From a virus: DNA of 34,650 bases. Below, piece after piece: positions 829 through 25,823 of this stretch (position 1 is its first letter; each line of letters opens with the position of its first letter). The stretch spans positions 1 to 34,650 of IMG/VR virus record IMGVR_UViG_3300037847_003305. One strand, 5' to 3'. The notes below the pieces were generated by a model, which was not told where the DNA came from, ran no database searches, and was given only the letters and a program-made list of their open reading frames with translations. Position numbers and translations under genes: made by a program.

Positions 829-1206
829 CTATCTTAGCTCTATATGAACTAAATCATCGAAATTATTGTCTTTGGTTTCTCCATCACTATCCCAGTCTCC
901 CCCAAACCTTATATCAATTCCTAGTTGTTTTCCTATACCTCTTACCATTCCTCCCATATAATAAAAACGATCTCTGTCTTCCCAATCTATTGGATAGGGA
1001 GCAATATCGACAGCTTTACCCTCCATATGTTTAGAATACTTTACTTTTGTAGCTCCCTTGGCTAGTAATTCTTTTTGACGTTCAGCAGAGCGAAGCCCTT
1101 CAATAACTGTCACATCCATCATTTTAATGAGTTCATTTAATACGTTTATTAGTCTTGCATCCACCCCTCTGAGTCTTTCTCGACTTCGTCTGCCAAACTT
1201 ATACAT
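829..1206 (-). CDS. Endolysin, M15-type L-alanyl-D-glutamate / D-Ala carboxypeptidase-like
   Basis: The 125-residue protein is a zinc peptidase expected to cut peptidoglycan stem peptides and lyse the cell. The zinc-binding pattern of the M15 family is visible: His60 and Asp67 in SKHMEGKAVD and His121 in the terminal DLVHIEL. The opening RSRERLRGVDARL and VIEGLRSAERQKELL match T5-type endolysins. No signal peptide or cell-wall-binding domain is present, so it would need a holin for export. The ATG overlaps the stop of the 27-residue gene upstream as TAATG. It is the last gene before the head-completion gene, so lysis lies inside the morphogenesis operon. Confidence 0.9.
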   Translation of the reverse strand: MYKFGRRSRERLRGVDARLINVLNELIKMMDVTVIEGLRSAERQKELLAKGATKVKYSKHMEGKAVDIAPYPIDWEDRDRFYYMGGMVRGIGKQLGIDIRFGGDWDSDGETKDNNFDDLVHIELR

Positions 1207-1289
1207 TATCTTTTCTTCTTTCTCTTAAACATATTTTTCTTCTTCTTTCCTTTTTTCTTCATACCCTTTCCCCCATAGTGATATGGCAT
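1206..1289 (-). CDS. 27-residue lysine-rich mini-protein
   Basis: The frame reads MPYHYGGKGMKKKGKKKK and then a short basic tail: 14 of 27 residues are Lys/Arg and none is acidic. Both its start (TAATG at 1289) and its stop (TAATG at 1206) overlap neighbouring genes, so it is locked into translation between the 82-residue basic protein and the endolysin. This tight packing is the main evidence that so short a frame is real. I recall similar MPY...GKK-type mini-proteins in marine phages but no function. RNA or DNA binding is possible by charge alone. Confidence 0.65.
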   Translation of the reverse strand: MPYHYGGKGMKKKGKKKKNMFKRKKKR

Positions 1290-1537
1290 TATCTAGCCCT
1301 CCTAACTTTCCTTGCAGTTGATTTACTATATTTAGCAAATTGCTTTCCAGCTTTACTTGCTCTTCTTTTACGTCTATTTTCGTAAGCTTTTTGACTTGCG
1401 GTAAGTGATTTTCTTACACTAGCTGGTAAGTAACGTCCTCTTTTTCTACGAGGTTTTTTCTTATCAGACTTAGTAATGTAATCCCATTTTTGAGCGGTCC
1501 ATCTTTTTAAGCTTTTCTGTGATTTTTTAAGTGCCAT
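1289..1537 (-). CDS. 82-residue highly basic protein
   Basis: About 32 of 82 residues are Lys or Arg, against three acidic. The pattern KSLKRWTAQKWDY, then RRKRGRYLPASVRKSLTASQKA, then KAGKQFAKYSKST resembles small basic proteins annotated as hypothetical in marine phages, of the type 'GERYLP...ALSP..KAA...KR..GK'. No fold or catalytic motif is evident. Start and stop both overlap neighbours as TAATG (1537 and 1289). It sits in the run of basic proteins between the lysis membrane proteins and the endolysin. Function is unknown; charge suggests nucleic-acid or envelope binding. Confidence 0.75.
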   Translation of the reverse strand: MALKKSQKSLKRWTAQKWDYITKSDKKKPRRKRGRYLPASVRKSLTASQKAYENRRKRRASKAGKQFAKYSKSTARKVRRAR

Positions 1538-1719
1538 TATCTATATCCACCTCCAGCTTTTTTATAAGCACGAGCTAACATCTGGGCTTTTCTTGCAGAC
1601 CATTGTCCAGCCCTACCCCCCTTACTACCAGCTTTAATTCTATAGAATAATCTTTTTCTTAATGCTGGTTTTGTATAATTACCAGCTTTATTTACAGTTG
1701 ATTTTTTACGTTTAGCCAT
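1537..1719 (-). CDS. 60-residue basic protein, DUF5872-like
   Basis: The protein has about 19 Lys/Arg and no acidic residue. Its core (YTKPALRKRLFYRIKAGSKG, then QWSARKAQMLARAYKKAGGGY) matches what I remember as the DUF5872 family of short basic proteins seen in marine phages and bacteria. I choose the ATG at 1719 rather than an upstream in-frame ATG at 1779, because the upstream part lies inside the preceding gene and the family begins near MAKRKKS. It overlaps the preceding 47-residue gene by 8 bases and the next gene by TAATG. Function is unknown. Confidence 0.75.
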   Translation of the reverse strand: MAKRKKSTVNKAGNYTKPALRKRLFYRIKAGSKGGRAGQWSARKAQMLARAYKKAGGGYR

Positions 1720-1855
1720 GTCTTTTTTGTACACTAAAATTAGCGTATAAAGAAGCTCCTTTGTGTTTTTTATATCCACTTCTAGGATTCTTCATTAAAC
1801 GATAACTTTTTCCTTTCTTCATCCAATGATAACCTTTTGGTGCTTTTACTTTCAT
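1712..1855 (-). CDS. 47-residue basic protein
   Basis: The frame encodes MKVKAPKGYHWMKKGKSYRL followed by MKNPRSGYKKHKGASLYANF and a short end; 14 residues are Lys/Arg, none acidic. The APKGYHWMK...LMK...HKGASL.A.F.VQKRH pattern recurs, as I recall, in small uncharacterised marine phage proteins. It starts 4 bases after the stop of the 94-residue gene and overlaps the next gene by 8 bases (ATGGCTAA). The tight fit within the operon supports it as real. No function can be assigned. Confidence 0.65.
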   Translation of the reverse strand: MKVKAPKGYHWMKKGKSYRLMKNPRSGYKKHKGASLYANFSVQKRHG

Positions 1856-1859
1856 AACT

Positions 1860-2144
1860 CTACCATTTTACCTTATCAGCCCAATAAGCAGCAGACATTC
1901 TTCCTCTAGCAATGTTCTTTCTATGCCTTGCTTTAAAAGACTTACGTTTAGCTTTCATCCTTGCTGACTCTCCCTTTTTAGGTTTACCAGCGGTTTTTGC
2001 TCCTTGTTGACCAAAGCGTATTAACTTTACTTTGCTACCTACTTTAGCTAACACCATATGGCTTTTAGTTTTGTGTCCAGGAGTTCGCTTTGGTTTATTA
2101 AATCCCCTTAGACCAAATCTTTTAAGTCTAGGATCTTTAGCCAT
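1860..2144 (-). CDS. 94-residue basic protein, DUF6321-like
   Basis: About 31 of 94 residues are basic. The sequence pattern KDPRLKRFGLRGFNKPKRTP, HKTKSHMVLAKVG, IRFGQQG, KARHRKNIARGRMSAAYWAD resembles the family I know as DUF6321, a conserved protein of marine phages without known function. The closing AYWADKVKW is characteristic in my memory. Its ATG overlaps the stop of the preceding lipoprotein-like gene as TAATG. The lack of hydrophobic segments argues against a membrane role; nucleic-acid binding is only a charge-based guess. Confidence 0.8.
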   Translation of the reverse strand: MAKDPRLKRFGLRGFNKPKRTPGHKTKSHMVLAKVGSKVKLIRFGQQGAKTAGKPKKGESARMKAKRKSFKARHRKNIARGRMSAAYWADKVKW

Positions 2145-2353
2145 TACTTAGAGCCAAATATCTTAGAGAAAAAACCTTTCTTAGACTTTTTACCTTTCGA
2201 TCCACCAATCTTCTTACCTTTCTTTTTTTTCTTTTTAACATCACCATATAAAGAGTAAGAAACGTCAGAGTATCTTTCAGGATATTGGACCATGTCTGGG
2301 ATTGATCCATGCAAACATGAGGTTGTGAGTAAGGCTACTATTATATTCGTCAT
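2144..2353 (-). CDS. Small lipoprotein-like protein with poly-lysine tail
   Basis: The 69-residue protein begins MTNIIVALLTTSC, a hydrophobic stretch ending in a lipobox-like Cys13, and ends in a lysine-rich tail (KKKKKKGKK and KGKKSKKGFF). That architecture suggests a membrane-anchored protein with a strongly positive soluble end. The signal is unusually short and lacks N-terminal Lys/Arg. Directly before its ATG is an in-frame TAG that ends the upstream gene, whose last codons read KKKLGL; readthrough would supply the missing charged n-region. Lipidation is therefore uncertain. It lies between lysis-like membrane proteins and the basic-protein run, so an outer-membrane role in lysis is possible. 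Confidence 0.55.
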   Translation of the reverse strand: MTNIIVALLTTSCLHGSIPDMVQYPERYSDVSYSLYGDVKKKKKKGKKIGGSKGKKSKKGFFSKIFGSK

Positions 2354-3989: not shown

Positions 3990-6900
3990 TTAAACAAAAT
4001 ATGTAACATCAAATAATATATCTCCATCAGATGACATTTCACTAGCTTGTAAATTTGTATTACTACTTGAATTATCATAAAGTTTCAAACCTATTGATGC
4101 TGAATTTTTATTTGTTGATGCAAAAACAGTTGGAGCTACTGTTGCACTATTATCTGTACTTGTAGGTAATGCAAAATCTCCATATCTAACTATACCATTT
4201 GTATAGGCATCATTAGTATTACTAGATGTAAATGGCAACCCAGTTATTGTAAGATCACCACTTATTGCCGCACCACCACTATTATTAAAATTTGTCATAG
4301 CAATATGACAAGTTACATGAACCATTCTACCAATTTTTGTATATGCACCAAATTGAGTGTCATAATTAACCGCTGCTCCATTTGTAGAACCATTTAATAC
4401 TGGTGTCCAAGTACCTTCTTCATAAGAATCAAGAACTTCAGATGAAGATGAACCCGCATCTGGAGCGGGTTGACTAGCTGAAAAATCAATTCCAGCACAA
4501 TGAACTGTTGCTCCACTATCTGATGCCATATAAACATCTGTATGAGCCGAATTACCTAAAACAATTTTATTAGTTCCTTGTCCTATTGCCTCTCTACCAA
4601 TTACAATACAGTTGCTATCTGTATTTGTTCCAACATCTGCACCAGCACCAATAATAACATTATTCTCACCAGAGGTTATTAAATCACCCGCAAGATGCCC
4701 AATACAAGTATTTTCATCAGTAGCTTCGTTACTACCATTTGCAAGGGCATTATAACCTATGGCTGTGTTTCCAAATGCCCCACCAGGTATTGCCCCAGCC
4801 GCATTATAACCAACTGCTGTGTTTTGACTTCCAGTAGTATTTGCATCCATAGCTTGATAACCAATAGCTGTGTTTCCAGCACCAGATGTAATATTTCTTA
4901 ACGCATCTTGACCAATTCCAATACTTCCATTAATAGCATCAGTTGAGCTAGAAGAACCTCGAACTGCATTTAATCCAATGGCTATAACATCAGTAAATGC
5001 TTGACCAGCTTGAAGTGAACCCATAGCATTTTGACCTATTGCTATTGAGGTTTCGGGATTTGTAGGAACAGACATAGCATCTGTACCTATTGCAATATTT
5101 GCTCCCCCAGTTGTTAAATTTATACCTGTCTGATAGCCTAAAGTCGTATTGTAAGCACCGCTGGTAATTGCATATAAACCTTTATAACCAATTCCAACAT
5201 TTCCATTATGACTTTGTCCAGTTGCTCCTTGCCCAGCTTGAGTTCCTAAAAATGTATTATATGTTCCAGTTTCATTGTATAAATTCGCTGAATAACCTAT
5301 CGACGTGTTACCTTCTCCAGTAGTTATATTATAATTAGAGTATCCACCAAGTCCACTATTAAAATCTCCAGTTGTTATTGCGGCTGACGAAACAAGACCT
5401 ACTGCTGTATTATTAGTTGCTCCATTCATAGCACCAGCCATTACACCAGCTCCTATTGCAGTATTTGAATGACAAGCAGCGGTTACCCAATTTCCTCCAC
5501 CAGCATTATTGCCAATGAAAACATTTTGAACAGTTGCGGCATCTTGGGTGTCATCAATATATGAGGCATCCATAGCTTGATAACCAATAGCAATATTTTG
5601 GTCTCCTAATTTGTTTTCGTGACCAGCATTTTGACCTATAAAAGTATTATAGTTTCCACCAGATGCTAAGTCATCTCCAGCTAAGTGTCCAAAAACTGTA
5701 TTGCCAGTACCAGAATCATTATTAGATAATGAAATGCGAGAGTTGTTATCAACTAACATTCTTGTAGTACCAGAAGCAGTATTATAATTTGCACCAGTAA
5801 CTATTCCAACACTTGTTGCGGCATTACCAACTCCAGTTCCACCACCAATATATATAGCATTTGCTGTGCTTCCAGATTGTGCATAAAACAATGTAACTGG
5901 TTCTTCTGCTTGTTTATAATGAAGCATTCCCATTCTAGCTTCTTTAGTAGTATCATCTGAATCTGCAACATCACTCATTGTTAATTGAAAAGCATCAGAA
6001 TCACCTACTATTTCCATTTTAGCATGAGTTGGAGAAGCAGTTCCAATTCCTACAGCTCCAGCATTATTTATATAAAACCTCGTTGTCCCATCATGTGGGT
6101 CAGCAGTAGCATTAGATGATTGTTTTATGCCAAAATCACCAAATTCAACAAAGTTAGAAGTTATTACATATTGTCTTCTTGAAACATTTGCATGATTATC
6201 AGTTAAATAAATACTAGGAATATTTGCCGCTTCAACTGACATTCCACCTTTTGAAGAACTTGAAACTACTGATAGCTCTCTTGACGGAGAGGTAGTTCCA
6301 ATTCCTACATTTCCAGCTGAGGTTATAGTCATCCTTGTAGCAAATGACCCAGCATTATCTGTTCTAAAGCTAAACTGACCACTATTATCTGCTCCAACTC
6401 TCCCAACTCTTATTTCTGCTAATCTTTTGTAGGTATCATCTGAATCAGCATTATTAAAAGACATAACACAAACATCTGCATCTGCACCAGACTTTTTACC
6501 TTCCATTTCAAAAAGAGCAATATCACCATCAGCACCAGTATGAGCAAGTCTCAATGCACCATCAAAAAGACTGCTTACAGCGGCTAATCTTGGTATTGTT
6601 GTATCTCCAATAGATACATTTCCTAGAGCATTTATGGCTAATCCAGTAGATTCTTGCTGAATTTTTAGAGCAGTTGTGCCAGTAGCATTAGCGTGCATAT
6701 TTCTAAATTCTACTAAATTTCTTGTTCCACTATTATTTTGATTAGAGTTAATATATAATACACCGCCAGTTGTTCTGCTATTTCCCACATCATTTATATT
6801 AATTCCATAGCCACTTGTTTGCTGACTAACATCCATATAAATACCTTGCCCATCTTGTGTTTCCGTATCTATATTGATTGCTGTTCCACTTGTAGCATCT

Positions 6901-7079
6901 TGGTCAATATTTAATTCACCGACTACTTGTACCTTATCTGTTGCTAGTTGTAATGCAAATGTATTGCCAGCATCTCCATCTGTAATGGCTACTAAAGTTG
7001 TTCCATTTCCACCGCCATCAGGTAGTGATAAAAGTTGAGGATATGAACTTGCAATTGTTTTATTAGTTAATGTTGCCAT
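3990..7079 (-). CDS. Tail fibre / spike with beta-roll repeats
   Basis: This 1029-residue protein is the largest in the genome and the likely host-recognition fibre. Residues about 1-450 are beta-rich and contain two GIGT(T/A)SP motifs (near 257 and 346) typical of phage fibres. Residues about 455-845 are a run of roughly 20-residue repeats of the type NTAIGYQAM...SG..NTAVGYNA, which should fold as a left-handed beta-roll like the head of trimeric adhesins. The end, from GTWTPVL near residue 893, is a beta domain common at fibre tips. No S74 chaperone motif is visible. AAGGGA precedes the ATG. The gene lies between capsid and lysis genes rather than after the tape measure. Confidence 0.85.
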   Translation of the reverse strand: MATLTNKTIASSYPQLLSLPDGGGNGTTLVAITDGDAGNTFALQLATDKVQVVGELNIDQDATSGTAINIDTETQDGQGIYMDVSQQTSGYGININDVGNSRTTGGVLYINSNQNNSGTRNLVEFRNMHANATGTTALKIQQESTGLAINALGNVSIGDTTIPRLAAVSSLFDGALRLAHTGADGDIALFEMEGKKSGADADVCVMSFNNADSDDTYKRLAEIRVGRVGADNSGQFSFRTDNAGSFATRMTITSAGNVGIGTTSPSRELSVVSSSSKGGMSVEAANIPSIYLTDNHANVSRRQYVITSNFVEFGDFGIKQSSNATADPHDGTTRFYINNAGAVGIGTASPTHAKMEIVGDSDAFQLTMSDVADSDDTTKEARMGMLHYKQAEEPVTLFYAQSGSTANAIYIGGGTGVGNAATSVGIVTGANYNTASGTTRMLVDNNSRISLSNNDSGTGNTVFGHLAGDDLASGGNYNTFIGQNAGHENKLGDQNIAIGYQAMDASYIDDTQDAATVQNVFIGNNAGGGNWVTAACHSNTAIGAGVMAGAMNGATNNTAVGLVSSAAITTGDFNSGLGGYSNYNITTGEGNTSIGYSANLYNETGTYNTFLGTQAGQGATGQSHNGNVGIGYKGLYAITSGAYNTTLGYQTGINLTTGGANIAIGTDAMSVPTNPETSIAIGQNAMGSLQAGQAFTDVIAIGLNAVRGSSSSTDAINGSIGIGQDALRNITSGAGNTAIGYQAMDANTTGSQNTAVGYNAAGAIPGGAFGNTAIGYNALANGSNEATDENTCIGHLAGDLITSGENNVIIGAGADVGTNTDSNCIVIGREAIGQGTNKIVLGNSAHTDVYMASDSGATVHCAGIDFSASQPAPDAGSSSSEVLDSYEEGTWTPVLNGSTNGAAVNYDTQFGAYTKIGRMVHVTCHIAMTNFNNSGGAAISGDLTITGLPFTSSNTNDAYTNGIVRYGDFALPTSTDNSATVAPTVFASTNKNSASIGLKLYDNSSSNTNLQASEMSSDGDILFDVTYFV
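4843..4868. repeat. 26-bp direct repeat in fibre gene (copy 1; copy 2 at 5566-5591)
   Basis: The same 26 bases occur at 4843-4868 and 5566-5591, both encoding the AIGYQAMDA unit of the beta-roll repeats. Identity at DNA level in such divergent protein repeats suggests recent duplication or recombination within the repeat region. Confidence 0.8.
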
Positions 7080-7607: not shown

Positions 7608-8501
7608 TTAAGAAGCGTTTGTGAATTTATATCCACGAGTTGCATGTATTAATGCACACCCATAAAGAGCGTCAGCAACCACTTTAGTACCTAAGTGATC
7701 AATCGAGTAGTCTGATTGCATTCTGACTTCTTGTTGCATTGCAAATCCAACCGCTGTTTTGTGAAAAATAACTCCACTAACATTAGTACCGCCTGTTCCT
7801 AAAGCATTAGTCATCATTACTGGCATACCATACATACTGTCTACCATTCCAGTAATAAGACCACCATTAGCATTACCAGTTGAATCATACCTTACTAGAC
7901 GATCTTCTTGCAGTAAATCTGCATAAACTGTTGGATTAACAGCCATCATAAGCTCACCATCACGATAATCAAGGTCAGCTTCACCTAATGAAGCAAGTGC
8001 TGCTTGAAATTCTGCTTGTGTGATAATATCGTCATTTGCTAAAGTAGCTCCTGATGATACAGTAATTATCTTACTAGCTATATGAGCATCTATTTCTTTA
8101 GCTAAAGAATATCCAAAAGCTTGAGAATATTTCTCAACCATACCTGGATTAGCTTGAATAACTGCTATATCTTCAAATAACTTTGAAGCATATTTATGTT
8201 GATTAATTGTAATATCAGAAACAGCACCACCATCTGTATCATACTGAATCGCTGTATTTTCTGTTTTTGTTTGTACTGTTAGTTCTGAAATTAAAGGTAC
8301 ATGAATAACATCTCCCTTACCTTGAACCATATCACTATAATCATCTACAAGTGGTCTAAAAACCAGCTTTCTTTGTAGATAATCATATACATATTCACTC
8401 CACAACTCTGGAATAAATACATCAACCTCTGTTAAGCCAGTATTACCACCATCATTAGAATTGCCATTTCCAGCACCAGCTCCTATTGCACCATAACTCA
8501 T
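7608..8501 (-). CDS. Major capsid protein
   Basis: The 297-residue protein has the size and pattern of a phage coat protein: an early VDVFIPELWSEYVYDYLQRK and LVFRPLVDDYSD, then GDVIHVPLISELTVQTKTE, a long helix (MVEKYSQAFGYSLAKEIDAHI), and late PTVYADLLQEDRLVRYDSTG, MYGMPVMMTNALG and IFHKTAVGFAMQQEVRMQSD. It would build the icosahedral shell, presumably with the HK97 fold. AGGAGATAATA precedes the ATG. It lies 2 bases after the scaffold gene and has a hairpin after its stop, as expected for an abundant protein. Confidence 0.9.
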   Translation of the reverse strand: MSYGAIGAGAGNGNSNDGGNTGLTEVDVFIPELWSEYVYDYLQRKLVFRPLVDDYSDMVQGKGDVIHVPLISELTVQTKTENTAIQYDTDGGAVSDITINQHKYASKLFEDIAVIQANPGMVEKYSQAFGYSLAKEIDAHIASKIITVSSGATLANDDIITQAEFQAALASLGEADLDYRDGELMMAVNPTVYADLLQEDRLVRYDSTGNANGGLITGMVDSMYGMPVMMTNALGTGGTNVSGVIFHKTAVGFAMQQEVRMQSDYSIDHLGTKVVADALYGCALIHATRGYKFTNAS

Positions 8502-8503
8502 TA

Positions 8504-9001
8504 TTATCTCCTATAAGATTCTAATATTTTACTCCAATTGCGTTTACGTTCTTCAGGACTCATATCGGTTATTTTGCCAAGTCTTTGTGTAGGAACAGTT
8601 CCCTTTCTATCAGGAGGATTTTCCTTTGACTCGCCAAATTCACTTACGATATTAAGTAGCGTTTCCGTATCCACATTGGAAAATTTTTCTCGTTTAGATT
8701 CAGGAAGTTTAGCTAAAGCATCTTTCCGAAGTTTTAAATCCATTGATTCCCACTTCTCTTTATAAGGTTTATAGGTTTCAATTTCTTTATTAAGCTCGAC
8801 ATTTAATTCTTGCCACTTTTCTTCTTCTTTTAACTTAGCTCTCTTTTGTTCTTCCTGTTGTTGTTCAAAAGCTTTCATTTTATCTCTGAGATCATTTCTT
8901 TCAGAGATTACTTCGTTTAGCCTTGAAATAGGTACATTGTTTTCGTCTTTAGTGACGTTTTCCTGTTTTACATCTGTTTCGATGACTTTTTCTTCTGACA
9001 T
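8504..9001 (-). CDS. Capsid scaffolding protein
   Basis: The 165-residue protein is almost wholly helical and highly charged, with a long coiled coil (RLNEVISERNDLRDKMKAFE through EIETYKPYKEKWE, about residues 26-90), and a basic C-terminus (SPEERKRNWSKILESYRR). The VPISRLNEVISERNDL opening is typical of phage scaffolding proteins. It is directly upstream of the major capsid gene, the classic order. AGAGGTAAAA precedes the ATG. It is the first gene of the minus-strand late operon, transcribed away from the terminase gene across an 85-base divergent promoter region. Confidence 0.85.
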   Translation of the reverse strand: MSEEKVIETDVKQENVTKDENNVPISRLNEVISERNDLRDKMKAFEQQQEEQKRAKLKEEEKWQELNVELNKEIETYKPYKEKWESMDLKLRKDALAKLPESKREKFSNVDTETLLNIVSEFGESKENPPDRKGTVPTQRLGKITDMSPEERKRNWSKILESYRR

Positions 9002-9086: not shown

Positions 9087-10400
9087 ATGCAAGAGAAAAA
9101 TTACGAATTTAAAAAAAAATGGTTTGAATATTTAGGATACAAACCGCATGATGGTCAGCTGGCTCTTCACTATCCAAAAAAGTACAATGCGAGGTTTAAT
9201 GTTATTGTGTGTGGTAGGAGATTTGGAAAGACTTGGGCTAGTGCTATGGAGGCAACCTATGTAGCTTCACAACCCAATAAACGTATATGGGTTGTTGGGA
9301 TGTCTTATAAAAAAGCAAGATTAATTTTCAGAGAGATATGGCAGAGAATGGTAGTTGGGCATGGAGATGATATTGATAAAGCTTCTGAAAAAGATATGTA
9401 TATTCGTTTTAAATGGGGAACAATAGTAGAGGGTATGTCAGCAGATAATCCATCAAGTCTTGTGGGAGAGGGTTTAGATCTTTTGGTTATCGATGAGGTA
9501 GCCAAGATGAATAAAAAGATTTGGGATATGTATTTATCTCCTACAGTAGCTGGTAGAAAAGGTAAAGTAATTTTTATTACTACACCAGAAGGAAGAAATT
9601 GGATTTATGATCTGTACAAGTTAGGCGAAATAGATGATATGTGGTCCAACTATTCATCACCTTCTTGGAAAAACCAATACGAGTTTCCACTAGGATTGAA
9701 TGATCCAGCTATTATTGAAAGAAAACGAAATATGTCTAAAGAACTTTTTGGTCAAGAATTTGGAGCAGAATTTTCTGTATTTGAAGGAAAGGTTTGGGAT
9801 TTTAATCGTGAGTTAGATACAGGAAACTTTCCATACGATCCTAACCTTCCAACCTATTGTTCAATTGACTTTGGCTATAGGATGCCAGCGGTTTTATTTA
9901 TGCAGACATACTTTGATGGAGAGTTTGATCATATTAGAATTTTTGATTGTATTCTGCATAAGAAAAATATTAGAACAGAAGACTTGATTAAAATGATTAA
10001 AGTAAAAGGTTATCCTATTGTAAGCTATTATGGAGATCCAGCTGGTAGTAATATTCAAGGACAAAGTGGAGCAGCCGATACAGAGATTTTTAGAAGAAGC
10101 GGTATGAGAATACTTTACACTAGAGACAGAAAAAGTAGAAACATTATCAATAGTGTGGCTTATACAAGAGGGTTTTTTGAAAGTGCAGAGGGCATAAGAA
10201 GAATACATGTTGACAGAAAATGTGTTGACGTAATTGAAGATTTTGAAGAGTATAGGTATCCTGAGTCTGAAGATGGTAAGCCGATCAAGGAAGAACCTAT
10301 AAAAGATGGTTATCACGATCATGGAAATGATGCTTTTAGGTATTTCATAATAAACAGATTTCCAATGAGAAATAGGGAAATGAAGAGGATTCAAAGATGA
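9087..10400 (+). CDS. terL: Terminase large subunit (TerL)
   Basis: The 437-residue protein is the ATP-driven packaging motor and headful/site nuclease. ATPase: Walker A GRRFGKT (43-49), Walker B LLVIDE (about 131-136), coupling motif ITTPEG (about 164). RNase H-like nuclease: SIDFGYR (acidic residue near 262), YYGDPAGSN (near 314) and HDHGNDAFRY (near 410). All key motifs are intact. The ATG is preceded only by a weak AGAAG. Its stop overlaps the portal ATG as ATGA. It is transcribed opposite to the capsid genes, and the probable small subunit lies 2.6 kb away on the other strand. Confidence 0.95.
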   Translation: MQEKNYEFKKKWFEYLGYKPHDGQLALHYPKKYNARFNVIVCGRRFGKTWASAMEATYVASQPNKRIWVVGMSYKKARLIFREIWQRMVVGHGDDIDKASEKDMYIRFKWGTIVEGMSADNPSSLVGEGLDLLVIDEVAKMNKKIWDMYLSPTVAGRKGKVIFITTPEGRNWIYDLYKLGEIDDMWSNYSSPSWKNQYEFPLGLNDPAIIERKRNMSKELFGQEFGAEFSVFEGKVWDFNRELDTGNFPYDPNLPTYCSIDFGYRMPAVLFMQTYFDGEFDHIRIFDCILHKKNIRTEDLIKMIKVKGYPIVSYYGDPAGSNIQGQSGAADTEIFRRSGMRILYTRDRKSRNIINSVAYTRGFFESAEGIRRIHVDRKCVDVIEDFEEYRYPESEDGKPIKEEPIKDGYHDHGNDAFRYFIINRFPMRNREMKRIQR

Positions 10401-11710
10401 TAGATAAAGTTATAAAGGATAAACTAACAGAAGCAAAGATGATGATGGCTCAACAAAGAAGGTTTGAAATCAGAAAGCATCTAGACTACTATTCAGGAAC
10501 ATCAACTGAACAGTATATTAAAAATTATTTTACAGGAGATGCTTTTAATGAGATACCTCCTACGTTAACTAATTTTACTAGAAAGTTTATAAATAAGATA
10601 AGTGGTATTTATACGCTTGGTGCAAAAAGAAACACTGGCAATACTTCAGAGCTATATGAAAGCTTAACGCCAACAAAAGATGTTAGATTAAAACATTCAG
10701 AGCGTATGACTCGTTTACTAGGAACAATTGCTAACAGAGTGTTTTGGAAGAATGGTCGCTTTGAATACAGACCAATTTATTATTTTGAATCCTATTTTAA
10801 TGATGATCCTTTTACACCTATTGCAATTACATATCCATTACTTAATCAAGTTGCAGACCTTAGTAATACAACTGAACTTCAATGGGAATATTGGGATTCA
10901 GAAAAGAATGTAATTATGAATGAAGAAGGAGATATTATTTTTGAAGAAAAAAATCCTTATGGTATATTGCCTTTTTCATTTACTCATCGAGAAGATCAAA
11001 TTGACTCTTTTTATGTAGAGGGTGCAAATGATATCATTAACTGCAATGAGCAAGTTAACATATCAATGACAGAAATGAATTTAGGATTACGCTATAACAT
11101 GTTTGGTCAGCCTTGGGTTAATGGACTTCAAGCAGATCAAAATATGATTCGTGCTGGATCTAATACTATTTTAGACATGGGAGAAGAAGGAAAGTATAAT
11201 ATTACTAGCCCTGGTGGAAATATTACAGAGGCAATTGACAACATAAAATTTCAAATGGAATTAGTAGCCACCAATAATCATTTATGGATACAATGGGCTG
11301 AGTCTGGTGGAGAAGTACCTAGTGGTATTTCATTGATGGTTAAAGACATGGAAAGAAAAGAAGATTACTATGATGATATTGCTTTATGGAGATTATATGA
11401 AAAAGATCTTTATGAAATAGAAAGAACCATTGCAGCGTATAATAATATTAATCTTTCTGAAGAATTTGGGATAGACTTTTATGAAGTAGAATATCCTAAA
11501 ACAGTTCAAGATCAAATCTTAAAAGATAACTTTGATTTACAAAACAATCTAACCACTCAAGCAAAAATAATGGTTCGTGAAAATAAAGACTTAACTTTAG
11601 AGCAAGCTCAAGCCATTATTGATAATAACAGAGGCTTTAATGAGCAAACACGACAACAATCAATCTTTACTCAGTTTCGTCAAACGCCTGGACAAAATCA
11701 ACAATCTTGA
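10397..11710 (+). CDS. Portal protein
   Basis: At 437 residues it has the length of SPP1/HK97-type portals, and it follows TerL with an ATGA overlap. Features include an early RRFEIRKHLDYYSGTSTEQYI, the segment TNFTRKFINKISGIY, the central NPYGILPFSFTHRE motif typical of portals followed by DIINCNEQVNISMTEMN, and a helical Gln-rich C-terminus. As the 12-mer at one capsid vertex it would form the DNA channel and bind TerL and the neck proteins. Its 3' end overlaps the next gene by 71 bases in another frame. Confidence 0.9.
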   Translation: MIDKVIKDKLTEAKMMMAQQRRFEIRKHLDYYSGTSTEQYIKNYFTGDAFNEIPPTLTNFTRKFINKISGIYTLGAKRNTGNTSELYESLTPTKDVRLKHSERMTRLLGTIANRVFWKNGRFEYRPIYYFESYFNDDPFTPIAITYPLLNQVADLSNTTELQWEYWDSEKNVIMNEEGDIIFEEKNPYGILPFSFTHREDQIDSFYVEGANDIINCNEQVNISMTEMNLGLRYNMFGQPWVNGLQADQNMIRAGSNTILDMGEEGKYNITSPGGNITEAIDNIKFQMELVATNNHLWIQWAESGGEVPSGISLMVKDMERKEDYYDDIALWRLYEKDLYEIERTIAAYNNINLSEEFGIDFYEVEYPKTVQDQILKDNFDLQNNLTTQAKIMVRENKDLTLEQAQAIIDNNRGFNEQTRQQSIFTQFRQTPGQNQQS

Positions 11711-14829: not shown

Positions 14830-15471
14830 GTGAATAAATCATTAGCAAAAAAAATAGTTGGAAGTGCTTTATCTAATACAACTAAAATGCCCTCATTTAG
14901 TTTTAATTTGAGTGCTTTAGATTGTAAAACGGGAGCAAAGTTAGTAAGTGTAGAAAATAGTGTTTGTAATGGTTGCTATGCTTTAAAAGGTAATTACAAA
15001 AGATACAAATTGACTGATAAATTGAGACCAAAAACAGAAAAAATAAACAATTCTTTATGGGTTGAATCAATGGCATATTTAATTAACAATCAAGGAAGTA
15101 AAAAAGATAGTAATTATTTTAGGTGGCACGATAGCGGAGACCTACAAAGCATAGACCATTTACAAAAGATTGTTGAAGTGTGCAAAAAAACGCCAAATGT
15201 TCTACATTGGTTACCAACAAGAGAGTATAAAATTGTTAATTCATATATTGTAAACTTTGGTAAATTGCCAAAAAACTTAATAGTAAGATTATCAAGTCAT
15301 ATGATTGACCAAAAGCCACCAAAAATACAAGGCTTAAATACTTCAACGGTTCACAAAAATAAAAAAGCTTTTGGTATTGAATGCCAAAGCTATAAAAATA
15401 ATAATGAGTGCGGAACTTGTCGGGATTGTTGGAATAGTTCAATTAAAAACATATCATATAAATATCATTAA
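14830..15471 (+). CDS. Gene product 88 (GP88)-like protein, GTG start
   Basis: The 213-residue protein matches the phage GP88 family as I remember it from mycobacteriophages: SVCNGCYALKGNYKRY (about residues 41-56), then YFRWHDSGDLQSIDHLQKI, LHWLPTREYKIV, LIVRLSSHM, and the closing ECGTCRDCWNSSIKNISYKYH. The invariant cysteines and the HDSGD, LPTRE and Y..H motifs suggest a metal-binding enzyme, but the activity of the family is not known to me. A GTG start with GGGAG upstream is the best choice. It lies between the first early gene and a small membrane protein in a three-gene unit closed by a strong terminator. Confidence 0.8.
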   Translation: MNKSLAKKIVGSALSNTTKMPSFSFNLSALDCKTGAKLVSVENSVCNGCYALKGNYKRYKLTDKLRPKTEKINNSLWVESMAYLINNQGSKKDSNYFRWHDSGDLQSIDHLQKIVEVCKKTPNVLHWLPTREYKIVNSYIVNFGKLPKNLIVRLSSHMIDQKPPKIQGLNTSTVHKNKKAFGIECQSYKNNNECGTCRDCWNSSIKNISYKYH

Positions 15472-16668: not shown

Positions 16669-17096
16669 TGAAATTGACACTACCAAAAAAGAATATGACT
16701 AAAAAAAATTACAAATCAATGACTAGACAAGTTTGTGTCATTCCTAACTCAGAAGAAAACCGAAAAGCTATAAAGCATTTAAACACTCTTGCAAAAGAGC
16801 AACATTCAGAATATCGTTTTTCTTTTAAATATAGATGCCCTAAAAAAGGTTCATATGGTAGATATGGAGAAGTAGCAAAAGATAATGCAGATGGACTCGG
16901 CTTATATGTTCAAGGTGCTAGTTATTCTGAAGCAAAAGAAGAAATCGATAAATTAAATGCTCGTTTTTGGGCATTACAACAAGACTTAAATGATGAAAAA
17001 GAAAAAAATAATAAACTTTGGCGAAAGTATTTAGGTTTGAAGCAATTAATAAGAGAAAAAGAAGCAATAAATCAAAAAATAAAGGAGTTATTATAA
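16668..17096 (+). CDS. 142-residue hypothetical protein with C-terminal coiled coil
   Basis: The N-terminal half has a mixed pattern (RFSFKYRCPKKGSYGRYGEV, DGLGLYVQGASYSEA) and the C-terminal half is a coiled coil (EEIDKLNARFWALQQDLNDE to the end). It follows and precedes genes by TAATG overlaps. Coiled-coil ends suggest it oligomerises. It lies directly before a methyltransferase-like gene, but no functional link is evident. Confidence 0.7.
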   Translation: MKLTLPKKNMTKKNYKSMTRQVCVIPNSEENRKAIKHLNTLAKEQHSEYRFSFKYRCPKKGSYGRYGEVAKDNADGLGLYVQGASYSEAKEEIDKLNARFWALQQDLNDEKEKNNKLWRKYLGLKQLIREKEAINQKIKELL

Positions 17097-17734
17097 TGAA
17101 GGTATTAGTAGCATGTGAAGAAAGCCAAGCAGTTGCAAAGGCTTTTAGAAAACTAGGTCACGAAGCATATTCTTGTGACATTCAAGATTGTAGTGGTGGT
17201 GAACCCCAATGGCATATAAAAGGTGATGCACTTGTTGAAGCATATAGTGGTAAATATGATTTAATGATTGCCCATCCACCTTGCACTTATTTAGCAGTTA
17301 GTGGTGCTAGATGGATGTATAACAACGATGGTTCAATTTGTTTAGAAAGGTTAAAGAATAGAAATAAAGCACTTGATTTTGTAAAGAAATTACTTGATGC
17401 ACCTATTGAAAAGATAGCATTAGAAAATCCCGTTTCGGTTATATCTAGTGCAATTAGAAAACCCGATCAAATAATACAACCTTATGAATATGGACATTCA
17501 GAAGCTAAAAAAACTTGTTTATGGTTAAAGAATCTACCAAAGCTAAAACCTACCAAGATTGTAGATAAAGGTGAGTTTGTTGAGTGGATTGATAAAAATG
17601 GCAAGAAAAAAAGACAAGCTAAGTGGTATTTAGATGTATTGAGTAAAGCAAAAACAAAAGCAGAACGCCAAAAGTTAAGATCTAAGACATATCAAGGGAT
17701 TGCAGATGCTATGGCACAACAATGGAGTATATAA
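17096..17734 (+). CDS. Cytosine-methyltransferase-like protein
   Basis: The 212-residue protein has a SAM-binding-like start (MKVLVACEESQAVAKAFRKLG), an acidic motif SCDIQDCSGG, a Cys motif AHPPCTYLAVS (about residues 59-69) corresponding to the catalytic PPC of C5-cytosine methyltransferases, and LENPV (about 109-113) in place of the usual ENV. It therefore belongs to the phage methyltransferase-like family seen with this 'HPPC...LENP' signature; target and activity are uncertain. AAAGGAG precedes the ATG at 17096; an in-frame upstream start would lie inside the preceding gene. TAATG overlaps occur at both ends. Confidence 0.75.
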   Translation: MKVLVACEESQAVAKAFRKLGHEAYSCDIQDCSGGEPQWHIKGDALVEAYSGKYDLMIAHPPCTYLAVSGARWMYNNDGSICLERLKNRNKALDFVKKLLDAPIEKIALENPVSVISSAIRKPDQIIQPYEYGHSEAKKTCLWLKNLPKLKPTKIVDKGEFVEWIDKNGKKKRQAKWYLDVLSKAKTKAERQKLRSKTYQGIADAMAQQWSI

Positions 17735-25041: not shown

Positions 25042-25167
25042 ATGTTTTACATACAAGAAGTATTACAAACCCAAGCGTTTGATACACTTATTCAAACTAT
25101 TATGTGGATTTCACTATGGGTTTTTGTTATAATTAGATTACATAGGATAGAACAAAAGTTAAAGTGA
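25042..25167 (+). CDS. 41-residue membrane protein
   Basis: The frame encodes one transmembrane helix (IQTIMWISLWVFVIIRLHRI, about residues 17-36) and a short basic end. AAGGAGATGATT precedes the ATG, and the stop overlaps the GTG start of the methyltransferase (GTGA). The good ribosome-binding site and coupling support it. Function is unknown. Confidence 0.6.
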   Translation: MFYIQEVLQTQAFDTLIQTIMWISLWVFVIIRLHRIEQKLK

Positions 25168-25823
25168 ATATATTAAATCTATATGCTTGTTTGGGTGGCA
25201 ATAGATATAAATGGGGAAATGATCATAACATAACTGCTGTTGAATGGGATGAAGACTTGGCTAATTTATATCAAGAAAGATTTCCAAATGATAAAGTAAT
25301 AGTATCAGATGCTCATCAGTATTTATTGGATCATTATAAAGAATTTGATTTTATTTGGTCATCTCCACCATGTCCAACTCATAGTAAGGTAAGAGTTACA
25401 CAAAAAAATAAAGATTTTTACAATCCTAAATATCCAGACATGAATCTTTATCAAGAAGTTATATTTTTACAAGAACACTTTGAAGGTAAATATGTAGTGG
25501 AAAATGTAATTCCTTATTACAAACCGCTAATTGAAGCACAAGAAAGAGGAAGACATCTTTATTGGGCAAATTTTATATTACCACCTAGTATTGATAGAAA
25601 AGAATCAAAGGGATTTATGTGTGGACAAAAAAATCAAGAAAAAGTAAAGCTATGTGAATTTCACGATATAGATATTAACTTTTTAGAATCTTATAAAGGA
25701 AAGCAAGACAAGAGAAAGTTAGTAAGAAATATGGTGGATTATGAAGTTGGAAAAATTATATTAGATGCAGCAATAGGCATTGTTAAAAAAGCCAATGAAG
25801 ATCAAATTTCATTTTTAGATTAA
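25164..25823 (+). CDS. C5-cytosine DNA methyltransferase-like protein (GTG start)
   Basis: The 219-residue protein has the C5-methyltransferase motifs: I NLYACLGGNRYKW (4-16), II AVEWDE (26-31), III VSDAHQY, IV SSPPCPTHSK with the catalytic Cys (about 65-74), and VI VVENV (about 112-116). RHLYWANF follows. It lacks room for a large target-recognition domain, as in many short phage orphan enzymes. No restriction enzyme gene is nearby, so host-restriction avoidance or regulation is more likely than self/non-self restriction. It is coupled by GTGA to a small membrane-protein gene. A DUF1599-like gene follows. Confidence 0.85.
   Translation: MNILNLYACLGGNRYKWGNDHNITAVEWDEDLANLYQERFPNDKVIVSDAHQYLLDHYKEFDFIWSSPPCPTHSKVRVTQKNKDFYNPKYPDMNLYQEVIFLQEHFEGKYVVENVIPYYKPLIEAQERGRHLYWANFILPPSIDRKESKGFMCGQKNQEKVKLCEFHDIDINFLESYKGKQDKRKLVRNMVDYEVGKIILDAAIGIVKKANEDQISFLD

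Follow-up and report, generated by a model that had tools for sequence, protein, structure and literature searches.

Bacteriophage T4 encodes small, basic, late proteins, the internal head proteins IPI-III, which carry a cleaved targeting peptide. According to a current proposal, these proteins are packaged into the core of the prohead, where they would meet the DNA. In tailed phages as a whole, cations and polyamines are generally regarded as the agents that neutralise the DNA. A paper on chlorovirus packaging states that evidence is lacking for any large contribution of basic proteins to the neutralisation of phage dsDNA (PMC3281028). The basic DNA-binding virion proteins of chloroviruses and the protamine-like proteins of eukaryotic dsDNA viruses have been proposed for such a task, with several basic proteins neutralising and ordering the packaged dsDNA (PMC3281028, PMC6163548). 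The locus described here, a block of small basic genes in a 34,650-base virus record from IMG/VR (the window, that is, the whole stretch of DNA analysed), resembles these systems in the job proposed for it; however, they belong to eukaryotic viruses and are experimentally supported, whereas the role of the marine phage block is a proposal drawn from its genes. Its proposed likeness to IPI-III lies in the small size, basic character and late class of the proteins.

A chain of small basic genes beside the endolysin gene

An earlier reading made from the sequence alone had described six consecutive genes for proteins of 27, 82, 60, 47, 94 and 69 residues at positions 1206-2353, lodged between lysis membrane proteins and an endolysin. 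All six frames are present there on the minus strand, read in the order P0006, P0005, P0004, P0003, P0002, P0001 and then endolysin P0007 (Table 1). The described placement also held, with spanin-like and holin-like genes and one further small gene upstream of the chain and the M15 endolysin downstream. The match of the spanin-like P0010 to the Rz-like spanin family phrog_739 is weak (E = 1.1e-3), and P0008 has no significant family in PHROG or Pfam. None of P0001-P0006 matched a lysis family of PHROG, and inspection of P0001-P0005 revealed no hydrophobic segment or signal peptide.

Table 1. Genes of the basic block and its borders in the window
Gene	Position	Strand	Length (aa)	Lys+Arg (%)	Asp+Glu (residues)	Net charge	Features
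P0010	2677-2994	-	105				N-terminal hydrophobic segment and coiled coil, spanin-like
P0009	2531-2677	-	48				One hydrophobic segment, holin-like by inspection; weak PHROG match only
P0008	2354-2530	-	58				Not basic; upstream of block; syntenic in relatives
P0006	2353-2144	-	69	23	4	+12	Short hydrophobic N-terminus and invariant Lys-rich tail
P0005	2144-1860	-	94	33	3	+28	phrog_7595; structured basic domain
P0004	1855-1712	-	47	30	0	+14	KAPKGYHWMKKGKSYRLMKN family
P0003	1719-1537	-	60	32	0	+19	phrog_17747; distant DUF5872 relative; GQWSARKAQ...GGGY
P0002	1537-1289	-	82	39	3	+29	phrog_14910; SLKxWTxQKW...RYLP...GKQ
P0001	1289-1206	-	27	52	0	+14	Lys/Arg-rich micropeptide directly upstream of endolysin
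P0007	1206-829	-					M15-type endolysin, right border of cassette; phrog_465 endolysin, E = 7.6e-39

As had been noticed from the sequence, P0001-P0005 are very basic with few or no acidic residues (30-52% Lys+Arg, 0-3 Asp+Glu), and the net charges of the six proteins sum to +116. The chaining of the genes by TAATG or short overlaps was likewise borne out, with three TAATG junctions, one 8-nt overlap and, in addition, one gap of 4 nt. AGGAGG, a strong ribosome-binding site, stands a short way upstream of the P0001 ATG, and GGAGGTGG stands upstream of the P0002 start. When the region was dinucleotide-shuffled 500 times, a chain of five basic ORFs never arose (shuffle maximum, 3), and no second five-ORF basic chain occurs elsewhere in the window. 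Codon comparison with relatives gave a median dN/dS of 0.09-0.27 for P0002-P0006, lowest in P0006 (0.09) and highest in P0004 (0.27), and the codons of these five genes are under purifying selection; for P0001, the ratio comes from a single pair. The sixth protein, P0006, had been called lipoprotein-like with a lysine-rich tail. The tail is present, and the lipoprotein assignment was judged weak, with Thr at -3 of TTSC and no N-terminal positive charge. Searches with this protein gave no PHROG match at E<=1 and nothing significant in Pfam.

The genome has about 33% G+C. Its head module is divided between both strands in the window, with capsid-like and scaffold-like genes pointing away from terminase-like and portal-like genes (7608-9001 on the minus strand and 9087-11710 on the plus strand), and the block shares its strand with the capsid-like gene at 7608-8501. 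A 1029-aa protein encoded at 3990-7079 (minus strand) contains many repeats of the IGxNAG/AIGYxA type and is tail-fibre-like by eye. Among the genes at 17018-17734, 25164-25823 and 14830-15471, two resemble cytosine DNA methyltransferases by eye and the third resembles the phage gp88 family.

Families, fusions and exchange of content among relatives

Three of the proteins gave profile matches over most of their length, namely P0005 to phrog_7595 (3.9e-41), P0003 to phrog_17747 (9.7e-33) and P0002 to phrog_14910 (1.9e-17). As had been described, the block consists of late genes from families without an assigned function. Relatives of P0005 were found in 44 phage records, comprising roseophages, cyanophages, HMO-2011-type and other marine phages, while 19 records contained P0002 and 17 contained P0003, pelagiphages included. 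Roseobacter phages CRP-1 and CRP-13 each carry P0005, P0003 and P0002 together. P0005 and P0003 each had at least 600 matches in IMG/VR, and both families are very common in marine viruses. Recurrence of the genes as a block, which had been put forward as a check, was found: P0002 lies within 2 kb in 72 of 76 P0003 loci and P0005 in 43 of 76, and P0002 lies within 2 kb on the same strand in 42 of 80 P0005 loci of IMG/VR and P0003 in 41 of 80, counts that are descriptive, as resemblance to the window proteins guided the choice of loci and short contigs are common among them.

The same families also occur joined to one another. P0003 is fused to P0002 in 14 loci, including the isolate Pelagibacter phage Hodr, P0002 to P0005 in six, and P0002 to P0004, which has 16 relatives among the loci, in one (L164). 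In addition, P0005 forms the C-terminus of a 292-aa protein and of a 1781-aa protein (L131), the first 600 residues of which had no match among isolated phages, and P0003 forms the C-terminus of a 301-aa protein. Two mixed alignments of single-domain and fused proteins (A3 and A4) superposed the wrong domains and were not used for folding; A4 served solely as a member list for a Pfam scan. P0005 also gave weak matches to phrog_220 ("minor head protein and DNA pilot") and, in Pfam, to a tail tube initiator (best, 2.6e-3).

Resemblances to DUF5872 and DUF6321 had been suggested in the sequence-only reading, and each stood in part. DUF5872 (PF19197) is matched by 7 of 98 phage family members (best, 1.9e-6) and is the RefSeq name of the P0003-P0002 protein of Azospirillum, so that the relation holds at family level; P0003 and P0002 of the window themselves have no match to it at E<=10. 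The DUF5872 proteins of bacteria and algal viruses share the P0003-P0002 architecture, whereas in the window the two parts are separate genes and the Rho_N-like C-terminal portion is missing. The family has also been named in algal virus CpV-BQ1 (PMC12085832). For DUF6321 (PF19846), the window P0005 gave no match at E<=10, and 3 of 57 P0005 relatives matched weakly (best, 1.4e-3). No window protein is a member, although true DUF6321 proteins do fill the same slot in close relatives, as described below.

The P0003-P0002 fusion is encoded in the genomes of many Methylobacterium and Sphingomonas species and of other alphaproteobacteria; bacterial loci of this DUF5872 type (L203-L262, e.g., L215:7989-8498) also include Acetobacteraceae. 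In Acidisoma, the protein carries a C-terminal Rho_N-like nucleic-acid-binding domain (E = 2.3e-4), and tails resembling this part were seen by eye in other bacterial loci. In Pelagibacteraceae, the domain order is reversed (P0002-P0003) and the gene is chromosomal, beside ordinary cellular genes; the swapped-order fusion was observed at L281:7911-8327 and in five more Pelagibacteraceae loci, with neighbours that are SDR-like and TspO-like by eye. The association of P0003-P0002 with a Rho_N-like domain fits a putative contact with nucleic acids, and its chromosomal occurrence in bacteria indicates that the pair can work in a cell.

Searches with P0006 yielded 25 loci of close relatives, and 27 relatives of the protein are found in close phages. 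Both borders are present in 17 of these relatives: P0006 consistently marks the left edge of the cassette, and between it and the endolysin lie two to six small ORFs. Although the families differ, 55 of the 57 slot ORFs in these relatives are basic (Lys+Arg >=25% and acidic residues <=10%), and a Lys/Arg peptide of 25-28 aa with 46-56% Lys+Arg occupies the slot of all 17. Some slots contain P0005, a 45-aa family with tryptophan and a Lys-rich peptide of 25 aa, others hold DUF6321 (4.7e-23) and DUF5824 (9.6e-13) proteins with a P0004 relative, and others contain only the Lys-rich peptide and a 101-aa basic protein. Because several of the 17 loci are near-duplicates, these amount to about six independent slot contents. 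The ORF-chaining script skipped P0004 in L166, extended P0003 via an upstream GTG, and took another frame in place of one basic ORF in L168 and L169; the genes skipped or altered are present in direct listings of these loci. The earlier description as one operonic block thus understated the arrangement: the block is not one fixed operon, as its content is swapped among the 17 relatives and its charge is kept.

At two loci, a tail-type gene comes directly after the P0006 relative (L174:1128-1355 and L186:5998-6204) and the basic cassette is absent, so P0006 can occur without the block. A further basic family of 42-61 aa (SWMWGGK...GTLIRETKTHKFA) was observed in the cassette, e.g., at L168:952-1080 and L176:1553-1687, and bears a weak resemblance to Hva1_TUDOR. 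In phage CRP-901, a P0005-like gene is annotated as HVA1 family.

The P0005 fold and the genomic setting in other phages

Capsid maturation proteases act inside the prohead before DNA entry. The AlphaFold2 model of P0005 (mean pLDDT 87.8) matched, in a library of viral structures, ORF125 of Vibrio phage ICP1, phage proteins named XkdF and ChaB, and a Tunisvirus protein that has the fold in common. For ORF125, the Foldseek comparison (BFVD) gave E = 6.6e-3, probability 1.00, TM 0.59 and 26% identity, and the P0005 profile independently matched its residues 187-261 with E = 1.1e-11 among 5115 ORFs searched. ORF125, a protein of the Peptidase_S78_2/XkdF type, is named capsid protease in the ICP1 records, a Vibrio phage copy of its C-terminal part is filed under Peptidase_S78_2, and its gene belongs to the ICP1 head region, flanked by the major head gene and the terminase gene. 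By profile and predicted fold, the capsid maturation protease of ICP1 and its relatives ends in the P0005 domain, and since such proteases work in the prohead interior, the fold would be at home there. P0005 is not itself a protease, as only the C-terminal domain of ORF125 is covered and 94 aa are too few for the protease part, whose core of ~120 residues is absent. Unlike the ICP1 protein, P0005 stands alone. The two also differ in charge: the window protein is far more basic than the domain appears to be in ICP1, and DNA binding does not necessarily follow from the fold; the comparison suggests that the fold may have a head-related job and that charge was added in the stand-alone proteins. 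No solved structure in the PDB matched P0005, P0003-P0002 or DUF6321 by fold or sequence, and the PDB therefore offers no function for them.

Outside the lineage of the window, the nearest large genes upstream (54 loci) include those for the terminase small subunit, portal, head proteins and head-tail adaptors, and the nearest large genes downstream (57 loci) include those for the terminase large subunit (10 of 57), endolysins and scaffold proteins; many others have no family match or belong to an uncharacterised family. A cobavirus has P0005 at the end of its late arm, after the genes for an internal virion protein and the endolysin and after two small genes. DUF6321 is encoded in P-SCSP2 by a stand-alone gene between the scaffold and capsid genes and occupies a like position in S-RIP2, where the product of the adjacent gene is 20% acidic. 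Cyanomyoviruses have DUF6321 at the C-terminal end of a longer protein, T4-GC119, whose gene lies close to g15 and the terminase genes. This protein is termed structural only in later GenBank records, the S-SM1 record itself giving hypothetical, and S-PM2 has no T4-GC119 between g15 and g17. The setting is one of late operons, beside terminase, portal, capsid or scaffold genes in many cases and beside lysis genes in some, so that lysis is just one of two associations.

Candidate roles of the block

The explanation favoured here, which has about an even chance of being right, is that the block encodes late, prohead-internal, DNA-contacting proteins whose charge is conserved and whose identity is swappable. 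P0005 would be a small folded module that carries its bearer into the prohead interior and that, in ICP1-type phages, is attached to the capsid protease. P0002, P0003 and P0004 would act as companion modules, either as separate genes or as joined proteins, and the Lys-rich peptide P0001 would supply extra positive charge. The proteins would enter the head, lie against the incoming genome, share with cations the neutralisation or ordering of the packaged DNA, and perhaps exit with it at ejection. Selection at the slot would keep charge, making different small basic families interchangeable. The analysis shows the genes and the selection on them, the recurrence of the block, the exchange of its content at retained charge, the fusions, the protease domain and the neighbourhood of head and packaging genes; from these we infer that the block proteins are present in the virion, bind DNA and condense it. 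A concerted late role had been proposed from the sequence, with DNA condensation, RNA coating and action on the envelope as candidates. Condensing of DNA in the head is preferred among these because elsewhere the neighbours are often terminase, portal, capsid or scaffold genes and because P0005 is a domain of the capsid protease; an envelope or lysis role draws only on location in this lineage, and a place beside lysis genes is just as compatible with other late functions. The favoured reading also draws on the fusions among the modules, the weak phrog_220 match, the basic character of 55 of 57 slot ORFs across differing families, the DUF6321 genes of P-SCSP2 and S-RIP2, and the bacterial P0003-P0002 proteins with the Rho_N-like domain in Acidisoma; against it stand the less basic appearance of the ICP1 domain, the chlorovirus paper cited above and the virion proteomes described below.

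The closest competing reading, although it seems unlikely, is a role confined to assembly. Within the prohead, the domains could attach to scaffold, portal or protease, or be substrates of the protease, and so aid head assembly, their charge meeting acidic scaffold and not DNA, with little of them left in the mature virion. The occurrence of P0005 as a domain of the ICP1 capsid protease would suit such a role, as would the DUF6321 genes beside scaffold genes and the acidic neighbour in S-RIP2; however, it leaves unexplained why unrelated slot families share charge alone, and why a 27-aa peptide is half Lys/Arg. Similarly improbable is a function outside the head, in which late, host-directed nucleic-acid binders would coat host RNA, ribosomes or the remaining nucleoid, or guard phage DNA before packaging. 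Chromosomal P0003-P0002 proteins in bacteria, with the Rho_N-like domain in Acidisoma and the swapped pair beside ordinary genes in Pelagibacteraceae, are compatible with this function, but in other phages most neighbouring genes whose function is known serve packaging, the head or lysis, and the P0005 domain sits on a capsid protease.

Location between spanin-like and endolysin genes, both here and in the 17 relatives, and the cobavirus order in which the endolysin and two small late genes precede P0005, could point to cationic lysis helpers that displace divalent cations of the outer membrane or regulate the endolysin. Nevertheless, the block adjoins terminase or portal genes in many phages, P0002, P0003 and P0005 appear to be folded, conserved, soluble domains and not membrane-active peptides, and P0001-P0005 are devoid of signal peptides by inspection; among the functional readings, a lysis role has the least support and is very unlikely. 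Purifying selection, the basic character of nearly all slot ORFs, the repeated fusion of the same families and the lack of such basic chains among the other small genes of the same genome leave hardly any room for a hot spot of small mobile genes (morons) that have no common function and are rich in Lys as a by-product of A+T-rich coding, even though slot content differs between close relatives and the G+C content is low.

Tryptic mass spectrometry readily overlooks proteins rich in Lys. Virion proteomes had been suggested earlier as a check; the papers examined on S-SM1, S-PM2, S-SZBM1, S-CREM2, P-SS2 and cobaviruses contain no clear detection, and a close homologue is not conclusively covered by them. 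The S-SZBM1 DUF6321 protein SSZBM1_192 does not appear in the examined portions of the mass-spectrometry table, and the small P-SS2 virion proteins that were checked included no homologue. The abundant 87-aa virion protein S-SZBM1_195 was considered as a relative and rejected, as it is not basic and shows no visible relation.

Extended beyond this locus, the favoured reading of DNA-contacting head proteins would describe a protamine-like system in marine phages, a possibility put forward tentatively and with more doubt than belief. In such a system, interchangeable small basic proteins would neutralise and order packaged DNA together with cations, delivery to the prohead would depend on the domain shared with the protease, and selection would act on total charge, leaving members freely swapped. 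The capsid protease domain and the link to head genes provide a first testable role for these families, and the link joins several DUF families across phages, alphaproteobacteria and algal viruses. Domains related to this set occur in bacterial chromosomes and giant viruses.
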